Shown: positions 13,201 through 29,100 of the stretch, piece by piece
Position numbering within the stretch: the first letter of the stretch is position 1
Layout: each line of letters begins with the position of its first letter
Source: Antedon mediterranea
Taxonomy: Eukaryota > Echinodermata > Crinoidea > Comatulida > Antedonidae
Reading direction: 5' to 3'
DNA: 64,000 bases
Assembly: GCF_964355755.1 (NCBI RefSeq)
Contig: NC_092678.1
Location: forward strand, 22,052,365-22,116,364
Program-made: the position numbers and the translations under genes
The notes under the pieces: model-generated
Told to the model about the DNA's origin: nothing
What the model saw: the letters and a program-made list of their open reading frames with translations, nothing else
Databases searched by the model: none

Positions 13201-16200
13201 TCGCAATAATATTGAAGCTCTAGATGTTTTGTGTTTTGGTAAGTAATACATTTTTTTGGATTGGCTAATTTTTTTTACAATAATTCTTTAAATTCATAAA
13301 AGATACACAATGAAATACCAGGTCATAGTGCAATCCAGAATACCAGGTCATAGTGCAATCCAGAATACCAGGTCATAGTGCAATCCAGAATACCAGGTCA
13401 TAGTGCAATCCAGAATACCAGGTCATAGTGCAATCCAGAATACCAGGTCATAGTGCAATCCAGAATACCAGGTCATAGTGCAATCCAGAATACCAGGTCA
13501 TAGTGCAATCCAGAATACCAGGTCATAGTGCAATCCAGAATACCAGGTCATAGTGCAATCCAGAATACCAGGTCATAGTGCAATCCAGAATACCAGGTCA
13601 TAGTGCAATCCAGAATACCAGGTCATAGTGCAATCCAGAATACCAGGTCATAGTGCAATCCAGAATACCAGGTCATAGTGCAATCCAGAATACCAGGTCA
13701 TAGTGCAATCCAGAATACCAGGTCATAGTGCAATCCAGAATAGAATTAGAATGTCAACAATCCTTAAGCTCTGTCTACACTATCAAAATAGTTTGAAAAA
13801 AAAAAGTATGATGTGGCAAAATATGGTAGTGGCATGCCCAAATATGGTACTAATATGACATTATCATGTCCATATATGGGCACATCACATTTTTTTTTGT
13901 CACATAAAATTTGATAGTGTAGACAGAGCTTGATATAACATGCATGGCTATAGTATTGTGGAATACTGTATATTACAGGTTCCTGATGTTCGTATATTAG
14001 AGGGATGTACTTGTATTATCATGTCCATATATGGGCACATCACATAAATAAGGGTGTCACCTAAATAGTACAAAGTTAGAACTGCTATTGCTAATAGGTC
14101 ACTAAATCTCTGTCTACACTATCAAACTAGTTTATAAAAAAAAGTTTGATGTGCCCAAATATGGTAGTGATATGCCCAAATATGGTAGTGATGTGCCCAA
14201 ATATGGTACTGATATGACATTATCATGTCCATATATATGGGCACATCACATTTTTTTTGGTCACATAAAATTTGATAGTGTAGAATGAGCTTGATATAAC
14301 ATGCATGGCTATAGTATTGTGGAATACTGTATATTACAGGTTCTTGATGTTTGTATATTAGAGGGATGTACTCCCTACTGGAATACAAAACAATTTTTAC
14401 TTTTGTAGGGCATCTACTTTTTGAGATGACGTGTGGTAGGGAATTAGACTCCGCACATCCAGACAGCGATGATTACGCTCAATGTAAACATCCAGAAGTA
14501 AAAGAGGTAATAATAATGATATTTTAGAAACACTTCCTCTATGTTTTTCCATCAAAAGTAAACAAACAAAATCAACAACATTTTTGGTTGAATTTGAAGG
14601 TAAAATGTGGAGTAATAAACTACTAAAGTTCATCGCAAATAGAGCGCGCGACGCATGATTGGAAGGGTTTGGGAGCAAACGTCATGACCTGTATGTACGT
14701 GATGGATTGTTTGTACGTACACGTCATGACGTTTGCTCTCAAACCTATACCATTATACACTGTGCCATGACGTTTCTCGCGAAATCAAGCTATTTGCGAT
14801 AAACCTTAAATAAGTAGATGGTATTTTAAAGGGTTATCTTATTAAAATAAAAGTTGATAAAATGTTATACTAGTTAGTATTTAAATACCAACGTGTGCTT
14901 TATCTAAATGTTATCTAGACTTCTTTTAGCCTACCAATAAATATGTAGGTACCAGCACATATCCACTACCATATTCTAAAGGATTATTGTCAGTAGAATA
15001 ATACCGTAAAATCTTCTAAAATTGTTTTTGTAATAGCTGTATAAACTAATGGTTTATTAATTCACAAGGATACATATTTCATATTTTACTATTAGTAATA
15101 TTAATAATAATTTATTTGGAAGCTACACTTTTGAAACAGTGGCACACTTATTGAATGAAGTGTCCATTCTGATTTATAAATATCTATAATACAGTAATTG
15201 TATCTGTACCACTGTATAGTTGAATTAAACAAAATTAAACATATAATTATATCAAAAGTTGCGTTTGTTCTGAAATACTGTAATGTTGAACTTTACTAAT
15301 TCATTTTTAAGGTTCTTGAGTTTATCTTCAACAAATCTAAAGAGTATCCTTCAATTGGAGAGGTCGCAGGTCACGACTTCTTCACATCGTGCAATCTGGT
15401 TGAATTGAAAACAAACCCACCACAACCAGTAAGTGTTTGAAACGTTTTGTATTAAACTATATTTTTTATTTATAGTGCAATTCTGGCATGCATGTATTTA
15501 TAGCAAATCATTGGCACAGTACCATATTTCATTTATATTCATGTCCAACAACGATCTATTCTAGGCCCTCATCTTTTAGAAAATAGTTTTTTATTGTATA
15601 ATATTATTGTTATTATATTTCAACATTTATGATATGTTTTTTTTTAATAGATAAAACTGTCTTCTGGAATGAAAAGCATAATGAAAGTAATCCATAAAAG
15701 CAAACTACCAAAGTAAGATATTTTTGTTTTCTGATTAAACAACTACTGTATATCCTCAGGTATAATCCCACTTCAGGTCTAATGCCACCCCCTACTATAG
15801 GTCTGATTTCATAAACGGGCATAATTCCGGGTATAGTCCCAGTATTGCCTTTTTACCTGGTTGTAGGACTCTTTCTAGCCAGTTCTGATGAGTTTTTACA
15901 AGAAATTCTTACCAATAATTTTTTTCCTGAACCAGACTATAAGGGTATTCTCCCACCCACCAAAGTCGGCCCAATTTTGTGTTTTTTTGAGGTGGGATTA
16001 TACGGTATATATTGATTTTTATATTGTGTTTAAATATTTTGTATCTGTGGTTTTTAGAATTAGTACAGAAAATGGGGAGAAGAAGCAAGTGAATGGAGAA
16101 AGCAAACGCCTACAAAGAGAAGCAAGCAAAACGAATGTGAAAGAGTCAAATCAAAACAAGTGAGTCACTCACAACTCTCTCCCCCTCCCCAGATTTATAC

Positions 16201-18379: not shown

Positions 18380-18508
18380 GTTTTGATACCTCCCTATGGA
18401 CATTATGCTGTCATATCACTAACATATTCGATTATATCCCTACCATATTTGGGCACATCACATTGATTTTGTTTCAAAGTAGTTTGATAGTGTGTAGACA
18501 GAGCTTTA
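18380..18508. mobile_element. CArG-family MITE, copy 9 (inverted, diverged)
   Basis: The right end TTTGATAGTGTGTAGACAGA is clear and the left end is eroded. Inside, CCATATTTGGGCACATCACA is kept. Confidence 0.7.
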
Positions 18509-18639
18509 GAGCATCCTAAATGTTATATTACACCTCCAAGCAGGCAATATTTGTATAATACTGACGTTTTCATTATATTCGGTTGAATGTTTGCATAAAT
18601 GTATTTAATCTGTCTCAGTTCTGTTAAATTTTTTTTTTT

Positions 18640-18797: not shown

Positions 18798-20104
18798 TTA
18801 CAAGATCATAATTAAATACTATATTGATTTCGATCCAATTCGGCTCTAAGTCTCTGCAAAACCCTATATTAACATGTTTGGTACTACAATTATTGAGAAA
18901 ATCTTTCCATAAAAAAAAAGATTGTTTTAAAAAAAATGTAAAGAAAACGCGATAGATAAAAATATAGTATTTCACTTCCAAAATCTAAGTACGTTTTTTG
19001 TATCATGATAGGGGGCGCTGTCTAGTTTCTTATTATCGATCGCCGTCTTTTTATTGACCTATCTACAGGCTAGGCCTCTATAGATTAGACAATAATGACA
19101 TGACAAATGTAGGAAAATGGTTGCCATTTAGGTCTAATTCTATCCTTTCCAGTGTACATTTGTTTCTTTAAAATTGTCAATATGAGTAAGTATGCAATTT
19201 TCTTTTTTTTAATGTGAAAAAATTGATTGATTGAAGAAGGAGGACACAGCTGTTCCAGAAATACAAATTAAGTGTAGCGCCCCCAACGTTCATATCGTTT
19301 TATGGAGTAGCGATTCCGAAAACATATTGTATACAAACCACACGAGGTACCCGGAAGCGATCAAGCATAAAACGACTGTATTTTAATAGCCAATAAAAAC
19401 AAATAAAAACCGCGAAAGCCAGAAAAATAATGAATATTCATTAGAACAACCCTGGATGAAGGTGAAAAAGATGTTGATGTCGTTTTATCACGTGGATTTT
19501 CAGAGGGAATCTAACTGAAAGTTAACCAACATTGTATACCCAACGCCAGTTTTTTTCTCAAGTGATACATTTAAAAAGTAGGTATAAATGTTTTTTTCCA
19601 TATCAGTTTAAAAATAATTTTTTCTGTTGAATTCTTTGATTTAGTTGGATACTTTAGTTATCCTTGAATGTTTTAACAAGGTTCGTATCCATATTGCCTG
19701 GCTGGATTTTTTCCTATGCTAGCTAGGCCCAGGCCCCTTGCGTGGTTAAAACCAGCTGTGTAAGACTAATGGCTGTGTATTTTTAACAGGTAAACATGTC
19801 TATTCTGGGGCCTGAGTGACAGTTTACAGCTGTTTCTAGTAGGCTAGCCTGGTCCTAATTAATAATGAGGCCTAGCCTAGGACCTAGCTAGGCCTAAGAT
19901 ATTTAAAAAATCATATTGGGAGGGGAGTTACACTACAGTAGGTCAGGCTACATGCCTATACTATATATAAAATATAGGCTACATCATCAGCAGGTTAAAG
20001 GCCTAGCAGCCTACCTAAACCTTCTTAGTCAAAGATAATTGTTCTCGGGGGTGTAATATATTAATAGAAAGAAGCTATAGAGTACTGTGACATTAGATAT
20101 TTAA

Positions 20105-20650
20105 TTATAACAAATGTATATTTCTTTCATATTTGTATTGTATATTTATTATTAATACAGTATTTTGATATGCAATCAAAATCTGAATCAGTAAATTACA
20201 TCAATTTCCGTTATCAATCAATTAATATATTAAAACCACATTAATATAAAATAACATTCAAAAAATTCAATTACAATTCATATACCATTTGTTAATGTAT
20301 TTCCAAAACCATTGTTCTAGCAATAAAAAAAAACCACTACCATTCATACAGTATACTGTACATAATATACAATACTGTAACAATTAATTACAACAAATGT
20401 ATATTTCTTTCATATTTGTATTGTATATTTATTTATTCTTATTTTGATATGCAATCAAAATCTGAATCAGTAAATAACATCAATTTCCGTTATCAAATCA
20501 ATTTCTTAAAACCAAATTAAAATAAAAATAACTTCCAAAAAATTAAATTACAATTCATATACCATTTGTTAATATTTCCAAAATCATTGTTCTGGCAATA
20601 ACAAAAAAACCACTACCATTCATAATATGTACAATACTGTAACAATTAAG
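20105..20650. repeat. Two-copy tandem duplication, about 280 bp unit
   Basis: Both copies begin AACAAATGTATATTTCTTTC and contain CAATCAAAATCTGAATCAGT, then GTTCTAGCAATAA or GTTCTGGCAATAA. They differ by small indels and substitutions. The pair lies just past the stop codon of the RAG1-related gene, probably in its 3' UTR; AATAAA on the - strand is at about 20428. Confidence 0.85.
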
Positions 20651-20668
20651 TGAGTGAGAAATAGCAAA

Positions 20669-23600
20669 CTATTCCTCAACTTTTCTGCACTTGGGCCTAG
20701 TCACCTCATGCTGGATATCGGGTGAAATAAAAGTCAGATGTGACTTCATGATTGACATAAGCTGGTCAAGGTTGCTCTTTAATCCATATACCGCCCTTTT
20801 CCGGCGATTAAATTCTGAGTGGATTAATTCGCCGCCTTGCTCAGCTAAGAGTCCAACTCCTACTCTCCATTCTCTCATGAACGGTATTGTGTGGTGCTCC
20901 AACATGTGCAATTTTGGTTGAATCACATTTGGAGCGATGCGTCTGTATTCTTTGGAGAACAGTTGTATGTGGGTTTCTGTTTTGTGAAAAAAATTTTAAT
21001 ATTTTATTTGAAAGATGTATTGTCTTTTGAAATGACAAAAAATCATGAATTAAATTTTAATGTAACAAGAAAGTTTATAAATGAGAATTTAAATTATACA
21101 GATGTTTGAAGAAATTAATCACACATTAAGAATAAATAAAACCAGACAAAATTCACATAATTTGGTCATCAGTTTTTGCTTACCATATTGATCTATTTCT
21201 GAATCAGTGATGCGCCTCGTATGGTTTATGCATTCATGGACATTAGTAAAGGTTTTGAATACAGGTGTAAATGATTCCTGTATCTTGTGCAATTTTGTTT
21301 CAAGCAGTTGCTTACAGTTTGTAGGACAGTGATGTATCTGTTGCTTTAAAGTCATTGAGACACCATCCATGAGCTTTTCTATGATGTTGAACTAAAAATA
21401 AAATATATAGTTTAAAATAAAACGTTTACAGTATGGCGAGAGTCAATCGCAAATAATTCTTAATTTTATTACTTATTTTGCTGTGTAAAAATTAACGAAC
21501 TTCACATTTTAGAAATTTTAGTTACTCACTTTGCATGCTCTGTATACATGGTTTCCCACAAAACTCTTTCCGTGGTACTGCTGTCGAGGAATTTTATTCT
21601 TCCTCAACACCTCGTCCATTTTTGTACATAGAGGTCCAGTTCCAAATTTTATCTCTTGGTTCATAGTGCTTCGCTATATAAAATATAAAAGAAATATAGC
21701 ATTAATTTTTATAGTATTGTATATTTTAGACATAATTTTAAATTTTAAAGGTGTATACTGTAGTACTGACCAAGTCTTTGACCTCTTGTTCTTTCAGATT
21801 TATTCTGTGGCCAGTCTCTGCAATCTCTGCAATCTTGTTATGCTGTTTTGTCACAAGTGACACTGAGAGCTCGTTTCTTAAATCCTCAAGATTCTCTTCT
21901 AAAGACTGGATTTTAATCATTGTAGCATTTCGATGCGCTGCAGCTTCTGATATGCTTTTCTCAAAGTCTGCTAGATGATCACCTGAGATTAAACAATATT
22001 GGTCAATCAAATAAATTTCAATCTGCATCAAAAATGAGCATCAAAATTAGTATATTTAAAAAATGTTAATGATAATATGGATAATTCATAGAAAAATAAG
22101 TTTCAGCCAAAGGTTTGTTTATTATGCATAAAAACAGGATAAACAATTTCGAAATTTACTGAATTCTATGCTGAAAGGGACCATGTATATTTTAAAAGCA
22201 ACTTCACCAATTGAGTTTATTTAATGTCAATGTAAAGTTAAAACAACATTTGAAGTTACCAGTCAAGATGTCACCATCCTGTCGCATGTTAAAAATTATA
22301 ACATCAAGATTGTGCACGTCTTTTTCCAGCATATCATAGAGTTTCTTAAACAACCCAAGAGAAATGTGTAATGCTGGTATTGACACCTGGAAAAATAGTT
22401 GAGGAAATATTTAATAAAGAGGTATATTTATAAATTACTGTAACAATTGTTTGTTTTGACAGTTATTTTATACTAACATTGTTATTTAATATGGAAGTAC
22501 AAACACACATTTCATTGTTTGGAGTGTGTATTAAACTTTCTAAATTGAGATTTTAATTAATTTTGAATTTAACCTAACATAAACACTGGGGACCTGTGCT
22601 GTTATGATTATTTACCTACCCTGTTTAATTCGATGTGTACCAGGTATGGCCTAACAACGCTGTGCGATATTGTTTTGCTTTTTTTTTTGTCACTCCCATG
22701 GTCTACAAAAGACTTGTAGTCACGATTGTAGGTCTTGAGACATCTACAGGCTTGAGGAACATTGTTGGTTCTAATGTCATCTTGATTACAAAAACAATAG
22801 ATGCAACTGTACTTTCCTTTAAAAAAATCAATTTTTAAATCTACATAATATATATAGTACTTCAGTTTTGTGTAACAAATGCCAAACAATGAGAGCTAAT
22901 AGCCAAAATATAAAAAAAAAATTGTATTGAAACTGGAAATTGTACTTACCATTTGGGCCAACAAGTCCATATACCTTTGACAAAAAATCATAATCCCCAA
23001 AAAAGAATAGGCGGATATTGTGAGTTCTGTAAAATGAGAAGTTATTTTCATTCAATTACCATGAATTCTAATTAATTACATTAATCATAATTAAAGATAT
23101 ACAAATTATGTAACATTTTCAAATTAAGTTGCATATTATAATTATGTAGCTCTGCTATATACTTAAGTCAGTGTTACTCATTCCAATATTATACTACTGT
23201 ATTTAATATTACTTTTTGGTCTTTGGTGAGGTCCACTGGTTTCCATCTAAATCCATGACTTCATCAAGAACCAGTTTCAAGCCTTTTTCGACATTAACTA
23301 TAAAATCTGGTGCTTGGAATGCCAAAATGACAATAATATTGTGCAGTGCATTGGGTTTAGGTAAACTGCAAATTTGAACTTCAAATTTAGTGGTATCACC
23401 ACCCTTGTCTCCTCCAAACTTGAGAAATATGTCTCCATCTTTGAAGAAGTTCAATTCATCAGACCTACAAAATTTAAAATTGCTTGTTACAAAATTAAAT
23501 ATAATTTAAGTCTTCCCTGACTAGATTTGTAATTATTTTATTCTTATATTTATACCACATGCAATCTATTATAGTATATATAATTTGTGCCAATAATACA

Positions 23601-25108
23601 GTACTGATGTATGAAATAGGTTTGTTTAAAAATAACAACAAAAAATGTTACATACATATCATATTTGTTTAGGTAGTCATAGATTAGTTCTTTGATTTTG
23701 GTTAGTCGGACTACTGCAACCTCTTCCAAAACAAGACCTCCTATAGATGTGGCTCCATCTCGTTTGACAAACATGTATTCCATAGAATCTACTATGTGAT
23801 CACCGATAATCTGTTCTTGGCAAATGCGCATTTGCCTTTCAGAAGCCAAAACTCCTGGGCAAAATCTATATTAAAAAAAAAAATGTATATACAGTACTGA
23901 TTAATTATAGTTTTTATAGTTTTCTATAGTATTCTAAATTCAATTAAAAAAAAAGTAAACTGTTGACTGAATAATAGTAAACAGTGGCTGTGTGGCCCGA
24001 CGGAGGTCCACATACCCGACACGAAAAGCAATAATAAAATAAATTACCTCCGCAGTGCTCGTTGCTGGCTCCAATTTATGCGGCAGGCATTCATGATTGC
24101 CAAACATCTTTGGGGGTCCATTTTCTCTTCAGTACTGGTAACACTAACAGTTGTTGTGCACTCTGATTGTTTAACAATGTTGATTGGCTGAATTTGATCA
24201 AATAAAATATTTGTATGATTTATCAAATAATAATGTATAATGAGTGAATCAAGAGTGTAGGCCTACATTATGATAAATTTAAATTAATTGTAATGGGTTA
24301 AAAAACTCACCCGTCCTCGAGTCATAAGTGACACTTTCTTATTATTCATAAGGTCTTTCCGTACTATGTTGTGTGCCATGCTTTTCAATTCTTTTGGCCA
24401 AACCTCATTTGTTTGGGCAGTACATGTAATTTCTTCAACTGCACTTAAAATTTTGGTGAATGCCTGTTCTTTAAACGTTTTGCAAACATGATTGGGGGTT
24501 TCTGACCAAACTAATTGAATTTTACATTGTTTGCATTGCAAAGGGACTCGTTTAAGCGATTGTTCTACAATAAGTGGAACTGGTTTGAGATCTTTGTTAC
24601 TGACAATTTGGCTGCAGTTAAAACAATCAATTGATTCTCGTCCTACTGCCTTAAACAATTTGTTTATGCAAAATGTACAAAAAAAATGTTGACAAGGCGT
24701 CTGCTGGCTGTCAATTGACAACAAATTATTGCATATCTGACATTCATACACTTGATTATCGTAATTTTCAAAAATTTTAAATTGAGGATTTAGTAGCAAG
24801 TGCTCATGAGTGGGAATAAAACTGCCAGTAGTATTGCTTCTGTTTTCGGGAAACTTGCATTTCTTCAGCCTTCGACCAGGTCTTGATTGTTGACTGAATA
24901 AGTAGCAGGCTAAGCATTTGTCTCCATGGTCTTTGAAATTAAATGGTGTTATGTTGTGTCCACCAAGTGCGCTAACGTGACAGCTTCCACATAGCCACTT
25001 AAGATTTGGATCCAAATTATATTCATAAGTGTACTTTACATCTTTTATTTTAAATTTTTTTCCGCAACAGTAGCAAAGGGAACTCAATGCCCTTTCGTGA
25101 AACTCCAT
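20669..25108 (-). CDS. RAG1-related protein: RAG1-type zinc/RING N-terminus plus DDE core
   Basis: Coding exons, in order: 25108-24311, 24187-24048, 23865-23656, 23464-23213, 23026-22950, 22816-22620, 22386-22260, 21982-21771, 21673-21530, 21391-21184, 20976-20669. All GT-AG, phases agree, 2673 nt, 890 residues, no internal stop. Seen: zinc knuckles C12/C15, C40/C43, C65/C68; a C3HC4 RING (C123, C126, C139, H141, C144, C147, C162, C165); a further zinc finger C192/C195/H207/C209. Their order and spacing follow the RAG1 N-terminal region. In the second half, D402 (GGDKGGD) resembles RAG1 SCDGMGD, D478 (FFFGD) is 19 residues before CIYC (C497/C500) as in RAG1, H812/H817 have RAG1 zinc spacing, and E838 lies 21 residues later. 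A probable coiled coil occupies about 601-671. Inference: transposase-derived, probably domesticated since it has ten introns; no RSS-like ends were seen. DNA binding or cutting is unproven. Confidence 0.85.
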
Positions 25109-25740
25109 TACTGTATATGAAATAAAATATAAAAAATTTTAAATAAAAATAGCTCCGCAGCTTATCTGTGAAATATATTTGTAATTGTATGTGTAATTTT
25201 TATAAAGGCCTATAATAGTAGTATAGTTACAGTAATGACTGTCACTCAGTCACACCAGCTAGCCTAAAAATGCACCAGAAAAGCAATAATTATTATTATA
25301 AACACATGCCATTAATTATTTGATAACAGTTATAATGATTAAATTTAGGATTAGGATAATTAAAGGTTTTACTACTACGAATTTTCTATGTTTGGGCCTA
25401 GCTTCATCCTAGGCCCACATTACTGTCAAGTTTATCGCCGGCTTCAACGCACTTTCTAAGCCTATCGCCAAACAGTTTTCTCGCCGATAACAATAACAAC
25501 GTATAAAGGGGTTGCAAAATATGCGAGTTTTACTAAAAACTGAACCAGGCTATATTAACATAACTTGTATTATTTTATTTATATAATAATGATGGCCTAT
25601 ATTCTAGTTCGTTCTTTTTCTAAAAAAATGAATTATATCCAAAAAATAAGTTAGGAATACAATGATATTTTCTACTTACGATTGTTTACTATTTCATTAC
25701 ACAGTTTCTATCGACTTCCTGGTTTATGTGTGGGAGATTA
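25109..25740 (-). promoter_or_regulatory. 5' UTR and non-coding first exon of the RAG1-related gene
   Basis: The coding start exon begins at 25110 after the acceptor ATATACAG, only two bases before the ATG, so at least one upstream non-coding exon is required. A good donor (AATC|GTAAGT) ends a candidate exon at 25680; its 5' end is not defined but is probably within about 60-100 bp. The rest is the intervening 5' UTR intron. Confidence 0.55.
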
Positions 25741-26146
25741 TTTCAGTAAAATGGACAATATCGTCGTTTATTTATTAATTTATATTAAAGAAACAATAAA
25801 ATATTGATTTTTTAATTGAACATAAACTTTTTTAATCGTTTGGTTTTATATAAAATGTGTTTTCTACATAAAAACTAACGGTAGCAAAATTTAATTTGGC
25901 GTTCGCGAAATAATGGTTTGTGTACAAAATTCATAAGTTCGCGCGGATCGGAGAGCGTCGTCTGCTAACACTGAGGGCGCTTTACTTTTTCTGATATCTT
26001 AACACTAGTTGAAACAGCTGTGAGGACGACTCTATCGACCGACGACGGCCGGAGAGCCCTACTGAACTAGTGAAGGTTAAGGTTAGGCCTAGCTCTAGAA
26101 GCATTTTTTTTTTTCATGATAAAAGTTTCTAAATTTCGAAGAAAAC
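25741..26146. promoter_or_regulatory. Head-to-head promoter region, RAG1-related gene / sialyltransferase 1
   Basis: The two genes diverge from this stretch. About 25930-26080 is distinctly richer in GC and CpG (GCGCGGATCGGAGAGCGTCG and GACCGACGACGGCCGG) than the AT-rich surroundings, as expected for a promoter. No TATA box was assigned. Confidence 0.5.
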
Positions 26147-29100
26147 ATGGAGTCAAGTATATTATTAAGAAGACAAACTGTGAAATAATAGTATTTTTAT
26201 TATTCTAGCTAGGCCAAGTTACTGACAGGTATATACTATTTATAGGCCAGCCTGTCAGTGTTATTAAATTAAAAAGTTAAAATTCTCTCTTTCGTTTTTG
26301 TATGTAGGTTGGGGACGCCTATACCAACGGTTCATTTGTGTATGCATCATATCAATTTTACTGTGCTTTTTCATCGTTTACCAGCTACAACCTAATCCGT
26401 CAGCAAACAGGTATTCTACAGTAAATTTATTTTATCCAAGTCATGTCGTGTAAGTAAAGTGCCATTTTTGAAGATATTGAAGTTTTAAATTCTTTCTGAT
26501 TTCTCTTTATTTTAGCAGTAACAAAGGAGAAGTGGATTCGTTACTTATACGTGAAATAGAGTACGACAGACCTCCGAAAGAAGACGTAAAAGAATACGAT
26601 AGACCACCGAAAGAAGATGTCGCAGAATATGATAGACCTCCGAAAGAAGACGTCGTAGAATACGATAAACCACCGAAAGAAGATGTCGTGGAACACGATA
26701 AACCACCGAAAGAGGACGTCAATATCACCAGTAATCGGTCCAATCGAGAAAAACCCATTAAAAATAAACCAGAGCTTCTAAGACCTCAACAGTTTGGGAA
26801 AATGGTTCACTTTGCTACCAACGATTCAATGTTTGATTTCAGGACAAAAATAGATTTTAAACCAACAGTAAGAAAGTTTTTAGTTGATAAACAAAACATA
26901 CAAAAATCATTATGACCAGTAGTAATATGTTTAATATTTTTTCCCCCAGACTTGTCCAAATTCCATCCAGAAAAAACTGCAACAAAGTAAATGGGCATCA
27001 GAGATGTTCCTGCCAAATATCACCATGGCGATGCATGAGGGCGCCATGTCTGAAGAGGAGTATAATCGACTGCATGCGTTCGGTATGCCGTTTGGGCTTA
27101 GCTTCCGAGATGACTTATTATACTCAGGTAAATGATGACAAATAGGAGATATATTGTATATTAATATAAAGGCAAATTACTGACAAAAATGACAATGCTG
27201 TCGGTATCAGTGGCTGGATCTCAATGTAGATACAAAATAAAATAAGCAAAAAGCTAAATCAAAACGATAAAGTAAATGAGCCAGAAAAATTAGCGTTTAT
27301 ATATTTATATATAAATATAAATCCAAAGGCAAATTACTGAAAAAAATGACAATGCTGTGGGTATCAGATATATATATATGTATATAAATATATAAACGTA
27401 TCATATCTAAACGTATCAGGCACAGAAACAATTCTAAACCTCCCAGTGATATACTGAAATTTAACTAATTCATTTGAAACGATAAGATGAAGAAATCTGT
27501 GAGAATGAGAAAAATCGCCCCAACCGAGACTATATTTATATATGATACTTACTGTATGCTCAAAATGAGGGTGATTTTCCTTTGTAGAAAAGCCTATTTG
27601 ACCGTGATTGGTTGGTTTCATCTTCCGATCATCTGTAAATTATTAAATGAAAACATTTAACTGTGCTCCATTCCTTAGTTCTAATATGGGTCCAAGATAT
27701 AAATAGAATCTGGGACAGATGGTGTCAATCCAAGATTTTTTCTACAGTATTTTAAAAAGCTTTTTCTTCTGCAGATTTACAAGCAATCCTATCAAAGCTA
27801 CCTCGTGTGGACAGTATATTAGACTTTTCTGGTAAAGAGAGACCATCATGCCTCAGCTGTGCCGTTGTAGGGAATGGCGGCATTCTGAACGGATCTAAGC
27901 TTGGCAAAGAAATAGACGAACATGATCTTGTCTTCCGGTAATTTTATATTCCTCATATAATATTTGTAAAAATACTATTGTTGTTTTATAATGTATGTTT
28001 ACTATACAAATGAACCAATTTATATGTGTTTTCTGAATAGTGGTTGGCCAAACTTTATGTGACAAAAAAATGGACATAATGATGTCAAATCACTGCCATA
28101 TTTGAGCAAATTACTACCATATTTGGGCACATTTGTCAAAGTAGTTTCATAGTGTAGACAGAGCTTTAAAACATAATATTGTCCTTGTGTTCTTTTTACA
28201 GGAATATTTCCCTTTTATACAGTAGCTGTCCCTGAATAGGAGGTTCCTCTGAATATGGTTGACCCCTAAATAGGGGTGTCACCTAAATATTACAAAGTTA
28301 GAACTGCTATTGCTAATAGGTCACTAAATCTCTGTCTACACTATCAAACTAGTTTGATAAAAAAAGTTTGATGTGACCAAATATGGTAGTGATATGCCCA
28401 AATATGGTAGTGATGTGCCCAAATACGGTAGTGATATGACATCATCATGTCCATATATGGGCACATCACATGTTTTGTCGTATAAAGTTTGATAGTGTAG
28501 AGCTTAAGATTACCATTTTTTATTTTCGTCGTTTTAAGGGTGAACCACGCCATCCGCAGGGGATTTGAGGAAGATGTCGGAACAAAGACAACACATTATG
28601 TAATGATGGACAGATCATTAGCCCACACCAGTAAAGAAGATGTCCCACGAGATAAGGTAGGTATCTATCTTCAATGGCAGCTATCAAAACCATTATGAAT
28701 ATTCTCACAATTTTTGAATGGCTATAAAATTGTTTTAATGACCAGTTATAGGCATCTTGTGAAATACAAAACATGAATAAAATAGTTCAATATAGGATTA
28801 CATAATAATATGTTTTTGTTTTTAAGGGAATCAAATACGTCTTTTTACCGTGCCGAAGGAAAGACTATAACTATATTAACACTGTTATTGGACCACCGGA
28901 CCCAAAACGACAACTGGTTGCAGATGCCAAAGATTTGAGAATTCTCCACCCTGATTTTGTTCGTTACATCCATAGAGTGTAAGTAGGCTACAAGAGGAGG
29001 ACGAAATGCTACATCTCTCTTTTTTTTATAATTTTATTAATTATTATAAAACATATAATTTTATTTTTTGCTTAATTTTTAACTTGAGATTGGCAATGGT

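Follow-up and report, generated by a model that had tools for sequence, protein, structure and literature searches.

A RING-bearing gene of the crinoid Antedon mediterranea probably encodes the transposase of an intact Chapaev-group transposon

Does the crinoid Antedon mediterranea carry a host gene related to RAG1? This question was raised by a locus in the 64,000-nucleotide stretch of DNA analysed here (contig NC_092678.1, positions 22,052,365 to 22,116,364; hereafter the window), where a sequence-only reading had described a complete gene that joins a RAG1-type N-terminus to a D-D-E core, and had proposed it as an intermediate or a parallel branch relevant to the origin of the V(D)J recombinase. 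Our analysis gives a probability of about 0.95 to another reading, in which the gene would encode the transposase of an autonomous Chapaev-group transposon (CMC/Transib superfamily) that is intact and was active recently.

The gene structure proposed in the sequence-only reading was confirmed. Eleven exons, joined on the minus strand from 25108 to 20669, produced an uninterrupted frame of 890 amino acids with GT/AG at all junctions (Table 1). Two diverged relatives in the same genome (L038 and L040), whose own splice sites were searched near the matching places, encoded intact proteins of 896 and 897 amino acids, which shared the intron phases and the 11-exon layout with the window gene and were 62% and 66% identical to its product, with values of 67–72% in the core and 49–50% in the first exon. 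Between the window, L038 and L040 families, about 77–84% of the synonymous sites differed, i.e., they were saturated, together with 22–25% of the nonsynonymous ones. Since nonsynonymous change was far below synonymous change, constraint acts on the coding frame, and the splice model did not arise by accident. The earlier view that the gene is complete and not decayed was right. In the core, the D-D-E residues and the C(2)C and H(4)H pairs that had been recognized before were invariant in the three proteins, as was the LH motif.

The N-terminal RING was also found as described, with a match to Pfam PF00097 (1.3e-5). Residues 12–68, which precede it, are cysteine-rich, and the conservation of these cysteines in the L038 and L040 relatives fits a candidate CHAPA domain. 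AlphaFold modelling of exon 1 alone, performed without an alignment, gave a mean pLDDT of 30 and was unusable.

Table 1. Features of the gene and of the element that contains it (window coordinates).
Feature	Position	Strand	Evidence or content
Whole transposon, 6,778 bp	19245..26022	- (transposase gene strand)	L031/L032 alignments
Target site duplication AGGA, one copy	19241..19244	.	identical to 26023-26026
Terminal inverted repeat CACAGCTGTT, gene 3' side	19245..19254	+	10/10 equal to reverse complement of other end
Exon 11 with stop	20669..20976	-	H(4)H H812/H817; catalytic Glu E838 (E834 less likely)
Exon 10	21184..21391	-	splice model and L038/L040
Exon 9	21530..21673	-	splice model and L038/L040
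Exon 8	21771..21982	-	splice model and L038/L040
Exon 7	22260..22386	-	LH motif L564-H565
Exon 6	22620..22816	-	C(2)C motif C497/C500
Exon 5	22950..23026	-	second catalytic Asp D478 at 22993-22995
Exon 4, DUF1280 core	23213..23464	-	first catalytic Asp D402 at 23407-23409
Exon 3	23656..23865	-	splice model and L038/L040
Exon 2	24048..24187	-	same phase in L038 and L040
Exon 1, residues 1-266	24311..25108	-	cysteine-rich N-terminus (candidate CHAPA domain), RING, trailing zinc site
RING finger, residues 122-165	exon 1	-	Pfam match
Trailing C..C..H..C zinc site	exon 1, after RING	-	Cys/His invariant in relatives
Terminal inverted repeat CACAGCTGTT, gene 5' side	26013..26022	-	inverted copy of other end
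Target site duplication AGGA, other copy	26023..26026	.	identical to 19241..19244

A protein search of the genome detected many further copies, the window gene being thus multi-copy. Two sister copies, L031 (on C2) and L032 (on C3), were 99.35% and 99.57% identical in DNA to the window element over 6.8 kb; their similarity to it ended exactly at 19245 and 26022, and the flanks beyond were unrelated. The element so delimited reads CACAGCTGTT...AACAGCTGTG at its ends, the similarity between which fades after about 13 bp. It is bordered by a 4-bp target site duplication (TSD), as are L031 (CCAG) and L032 (CATC). Given that a 4-bp flank match arises by chance in about 1 of 256 cases, the presence of the duplication in all three elements whose ends had been fixed beforehand is a signature of insertion. 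Two related elements had TSDs of the same length (TCTC in L040, GTCG in L042), which are weaker evidence than those of the window, L031 and L032 since the duplication itself had guided the choice of the ends. Within its 3' non-coding region, the transposon contains a direct repeat of about 250 bp (20101–20348 and 20384–20624), which was present in several of the copies compared.

The frame is open in three full-length copies, namely the window, L031 and L032, in the case of L031 despite an in-frame deletion of 9 bases; in several further copies, gaps or insertions change the frame. The 99.4–99.6% identity of the sister copies together with the three open frames points to recent movement. Judged by its sequence, the window element is an intact, autonomous and recently mobile DNA transposon. 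A repeat of 110–170 bp, found in the window at 13763–13931, 14168–14284, 18395–18510 and 28390–28501, represents another interspersed repeat family; the C6 copy (L036) has an insertion of it in its exon 8.

These observations bear on the reading of the locus as a single, domesticated host gene that would descend from a RAG1-like transposon and have been retained for some role in the cell. An intact spliced frame and coding constraint between diverged relatives would suit such a gene, but a functioning transposase should show the same constraint between families just as well, and both the inverted repeats with matching TSDs at this very copy and the near-identical intact copies in unrelated flanks argue against domestication, which we consider very unlikely. 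The earlier description of a host gene was consequently not sustained: the gene lies within a bounded, multi-copy mobile element, whose transposase it would encode.

Chapaev DNA transposons reportedly go back to Kapitonov and Jurka in 2007. Residues 351–455 of the window protein matched Pfam PF06918 (DUF1280) with an E-value of 2.9e-14 and 53.6 bits (cut-off 25). In a survey of the RNase H-like superfamily, DUF1280 was identified as the Chapaev transposase and placed in one clade with RAG1 (PMC3985635). The hallmarks published for Chapaev are a TSD of 3–4 bp, 5'-CAC...GTG-3' ends, and the DDE, C(2)C, LH and H(4)H motifs (PMC4079192). All of them were found here, with 4-bp TSDs at five elements (AGGA, CCAG, CATC, TCTC and GTCG), ends of the CAC..GTG type, and D402, D478, C497-x2-C500, L564-H565, H812-x4-H817 and E838 in the protein. 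An RNase H fold of the core is predicted from DUF1280 membership and from these motifs. Kapitonov and Koonin (2015, PMC4411706) described Chapaevs with an N-terminal CHAPA zinc domain, followed in two subgroups by a RING, as in RAG1, and with a core of the Transib/RAG1 superfamily; they regarded this layout as the probable ancestral state of RAG1. The layout that had seemed striking is therefore not new but the one already on record for Chapaevs. The DUF1280 core corresponds to the published Chapaev transposase family, and the ends, the TSD and the motifs are published marks of Chapaev.

The window element resembles the CHAPA- and RING-bearing Chapaevs in its cysteine-rich N-terminus, RING and DUF1280 DDE core as well as in its C(2)C/LH/H(4)H motifs, CAC..GTG ends and 4-bp TSD, and differs from them as an apparently new family in this genome with 11 exons. 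With Chapaev3 it shares the DDE core motifs and the CAC..GTG ends; however, Chapaev3 produces 3-bp TWA duplications (PMC4079192), whereas the five sites read here all have 4-bp duplications and include no TWA.

DUF1280 was detected at 53 places in the genome, which also contains further families with this core. One of them is a second Chapaev family with RING and DUF1280, represented by three closely similar copies (L044, L045 and L046, on C7, C3 and C6), so the combination is not unique to the window element in this genome. Searches with the element ends retrieved at least 26 shorter relatives with paired ends, 89–94% identical to those of the window element. Most of them, with a length of about 3.75 kb, could not accommodate the 4.4-kb gene, and no transposase match was found in the stretches compared; by their sequence they are probably non-autonomous partners or derivatives. 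Duplications in the 3' non-coding part were also seen in shorter relatives. The flanks of two of them (L055 and L056, bases 1–1500) consist of long, mutually similar tandem-repeat arrays (75–96%), which suggests insertions into satellite DNA. No relatives were found in the viral contigs searched.

How close the protein stands to RAG1 was evaluated separately for its two halves. In a single-sequence search of the PDB, RAG1 was the best match of the RING region (residues 121–194, 7.7e-5). With a three-sequence profile, BRCA1 tied with or beat RAG1, so that the RING is no more than a candidate for the RAG1 type. The core gave no match to the RAG1 model PF12940 at E≤10. Core profiles built from three and from six sequences were also aligned to mouse RAG1, the letters of which were checked against PDB entries, and placed D478, C497, C500, LH and E838 opposite D708, C727, C730, LH and E962; these alignments did not rise above shuffled controls, 3 of 30 and 4 of 60 of which reached the same score. 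Searches of the whole genome with PF12940 and with the mouse RAG1 core returned no match, and neither did their controls, which makes both uninformative. The kinship of the core with RAG1, that of a remote relative, thus rests on the published classification and not on the core matches obtained here. Of the relation to RAG1 claimed in the sequence-only reading, what stands is this remote relationship and the presence of a RING; a significant match of the core was not obtained.

A RAG1/RAG2-like transposon (RAGL, ProtoRAG or TransibSU), or a genuine link from Transib to RAG1, would account for the top rank of RAG1 in the single-sequence RING search and for the pairing of the motif residues in the best core alignments. 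The heptamer of the recombination signal sequence (RSS) is CACAGTG, and the element ends likewise begin with CACAG. These points are countered by the behaviour of the shuffled controls, by the similar performance of the BRCA1 and RAG1 RINGs with the three-sequence profile, and by a core that belongs to DUF1280/Chapaev and gave no PF12940 match at E≤10. Moreover, no RAG2-like reading frame was seen inside 19245–26022, where the longest ORF outside the gene comprised 112 amino acids, and each of the five elements examined had a TSD of 4 bp instead of the 5 bp of the Transib/RAG type. The lack of a visible RAG2-like frame and the 4-bp TSD therefore argue that this is not a RAGL/TransibSU element, and we regard this alternative, including the intermediate, as extremely improbable. 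The proposal of an intermediate towards the V(D)J recombinase is thus unsupported. A parallel branch fits, as the Chapaev clade, and was already published.

RAG1, RAG1-like proteins, ProtoRAG and TransibSU share with the window protein a DDE core whose zinc sites are C(2)C and H(4)H, and RAG1 also has a RING before the core and the same D-to-C spacing of 19 residues. The window element is distinguished from RAG1, RAG1-like, ProtoRAG and TransibSU elements by the lack of significant core similarity in our searches, by its 4-bp rather than 5-bp TSD and by the absence of a visible RAG2-like partner gene. N-RAG-TP of Aplysia is, like the window element, a mobile element with a region resembling the RAG1 N-terminus, but by its description it is set apart in having solely N-terminal-like sequence (PMC8355894).

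Next to the insertion, an ORF on the plus strand (26268–26450) begins about 250 bp from the transposon, which lies upstream of it. A Glyco_transf_29 match (1.2e-16) was obtained at 27756–27938 (+), and the ORF may represent the N-terminal end of a gene for a family 29 sialyltransferase (26268–27941, +), the promoter of which may be touched by the insertion. Another plus-strand ORF before the sialyltransferase motif (26481–26912) contains repeated units at 26540–26720 and a weak Pfam Mucin-like match.

For the Chapaev-group transposon, the behaviour of the superfamily suggests a course of transposition. The spliced 890-amino acid protein would bind CACAGCTGTT at the ends, its DDE core, with the predicted RNase H fold, would excise the element, and the 3' ends would be joined to the target at staggered 4-bp cuts, giving rise to the duplications. 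DNA binding, dimerisation or, as in RAG1, ubiquitin ligation may be the task of the zinc/RING region at the N-terminus. Mobilization by this protein might extend to the shorter non-autonomous relatives.

More tentatively, and with the odds rather against it, the RING-bearing Chapaev group may keep the ancestral CHAPA-RING-DDE layout from which the RAG1 N-terminus came, and could then serve as a working outgroup. If this is true, the intact, recently mobile copies would let the role of the RING in transposition be tested directly. The idea of a common ancestor for the RAG1 N-terminus was proposed in 2015 and is unchanged by the window copy, which offers material for testing it. As a well-preserved example that introduces no new principle, the element adds to the group an intact, recently mobile and RING-bearing Chapaev whose ends and exon structure are defined and which comes with relatives and probable non-autonomous derivatives. 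It also indicates that invertebrate sequences called 'RAG1-like genes' need to be checked for copies and target duplications.
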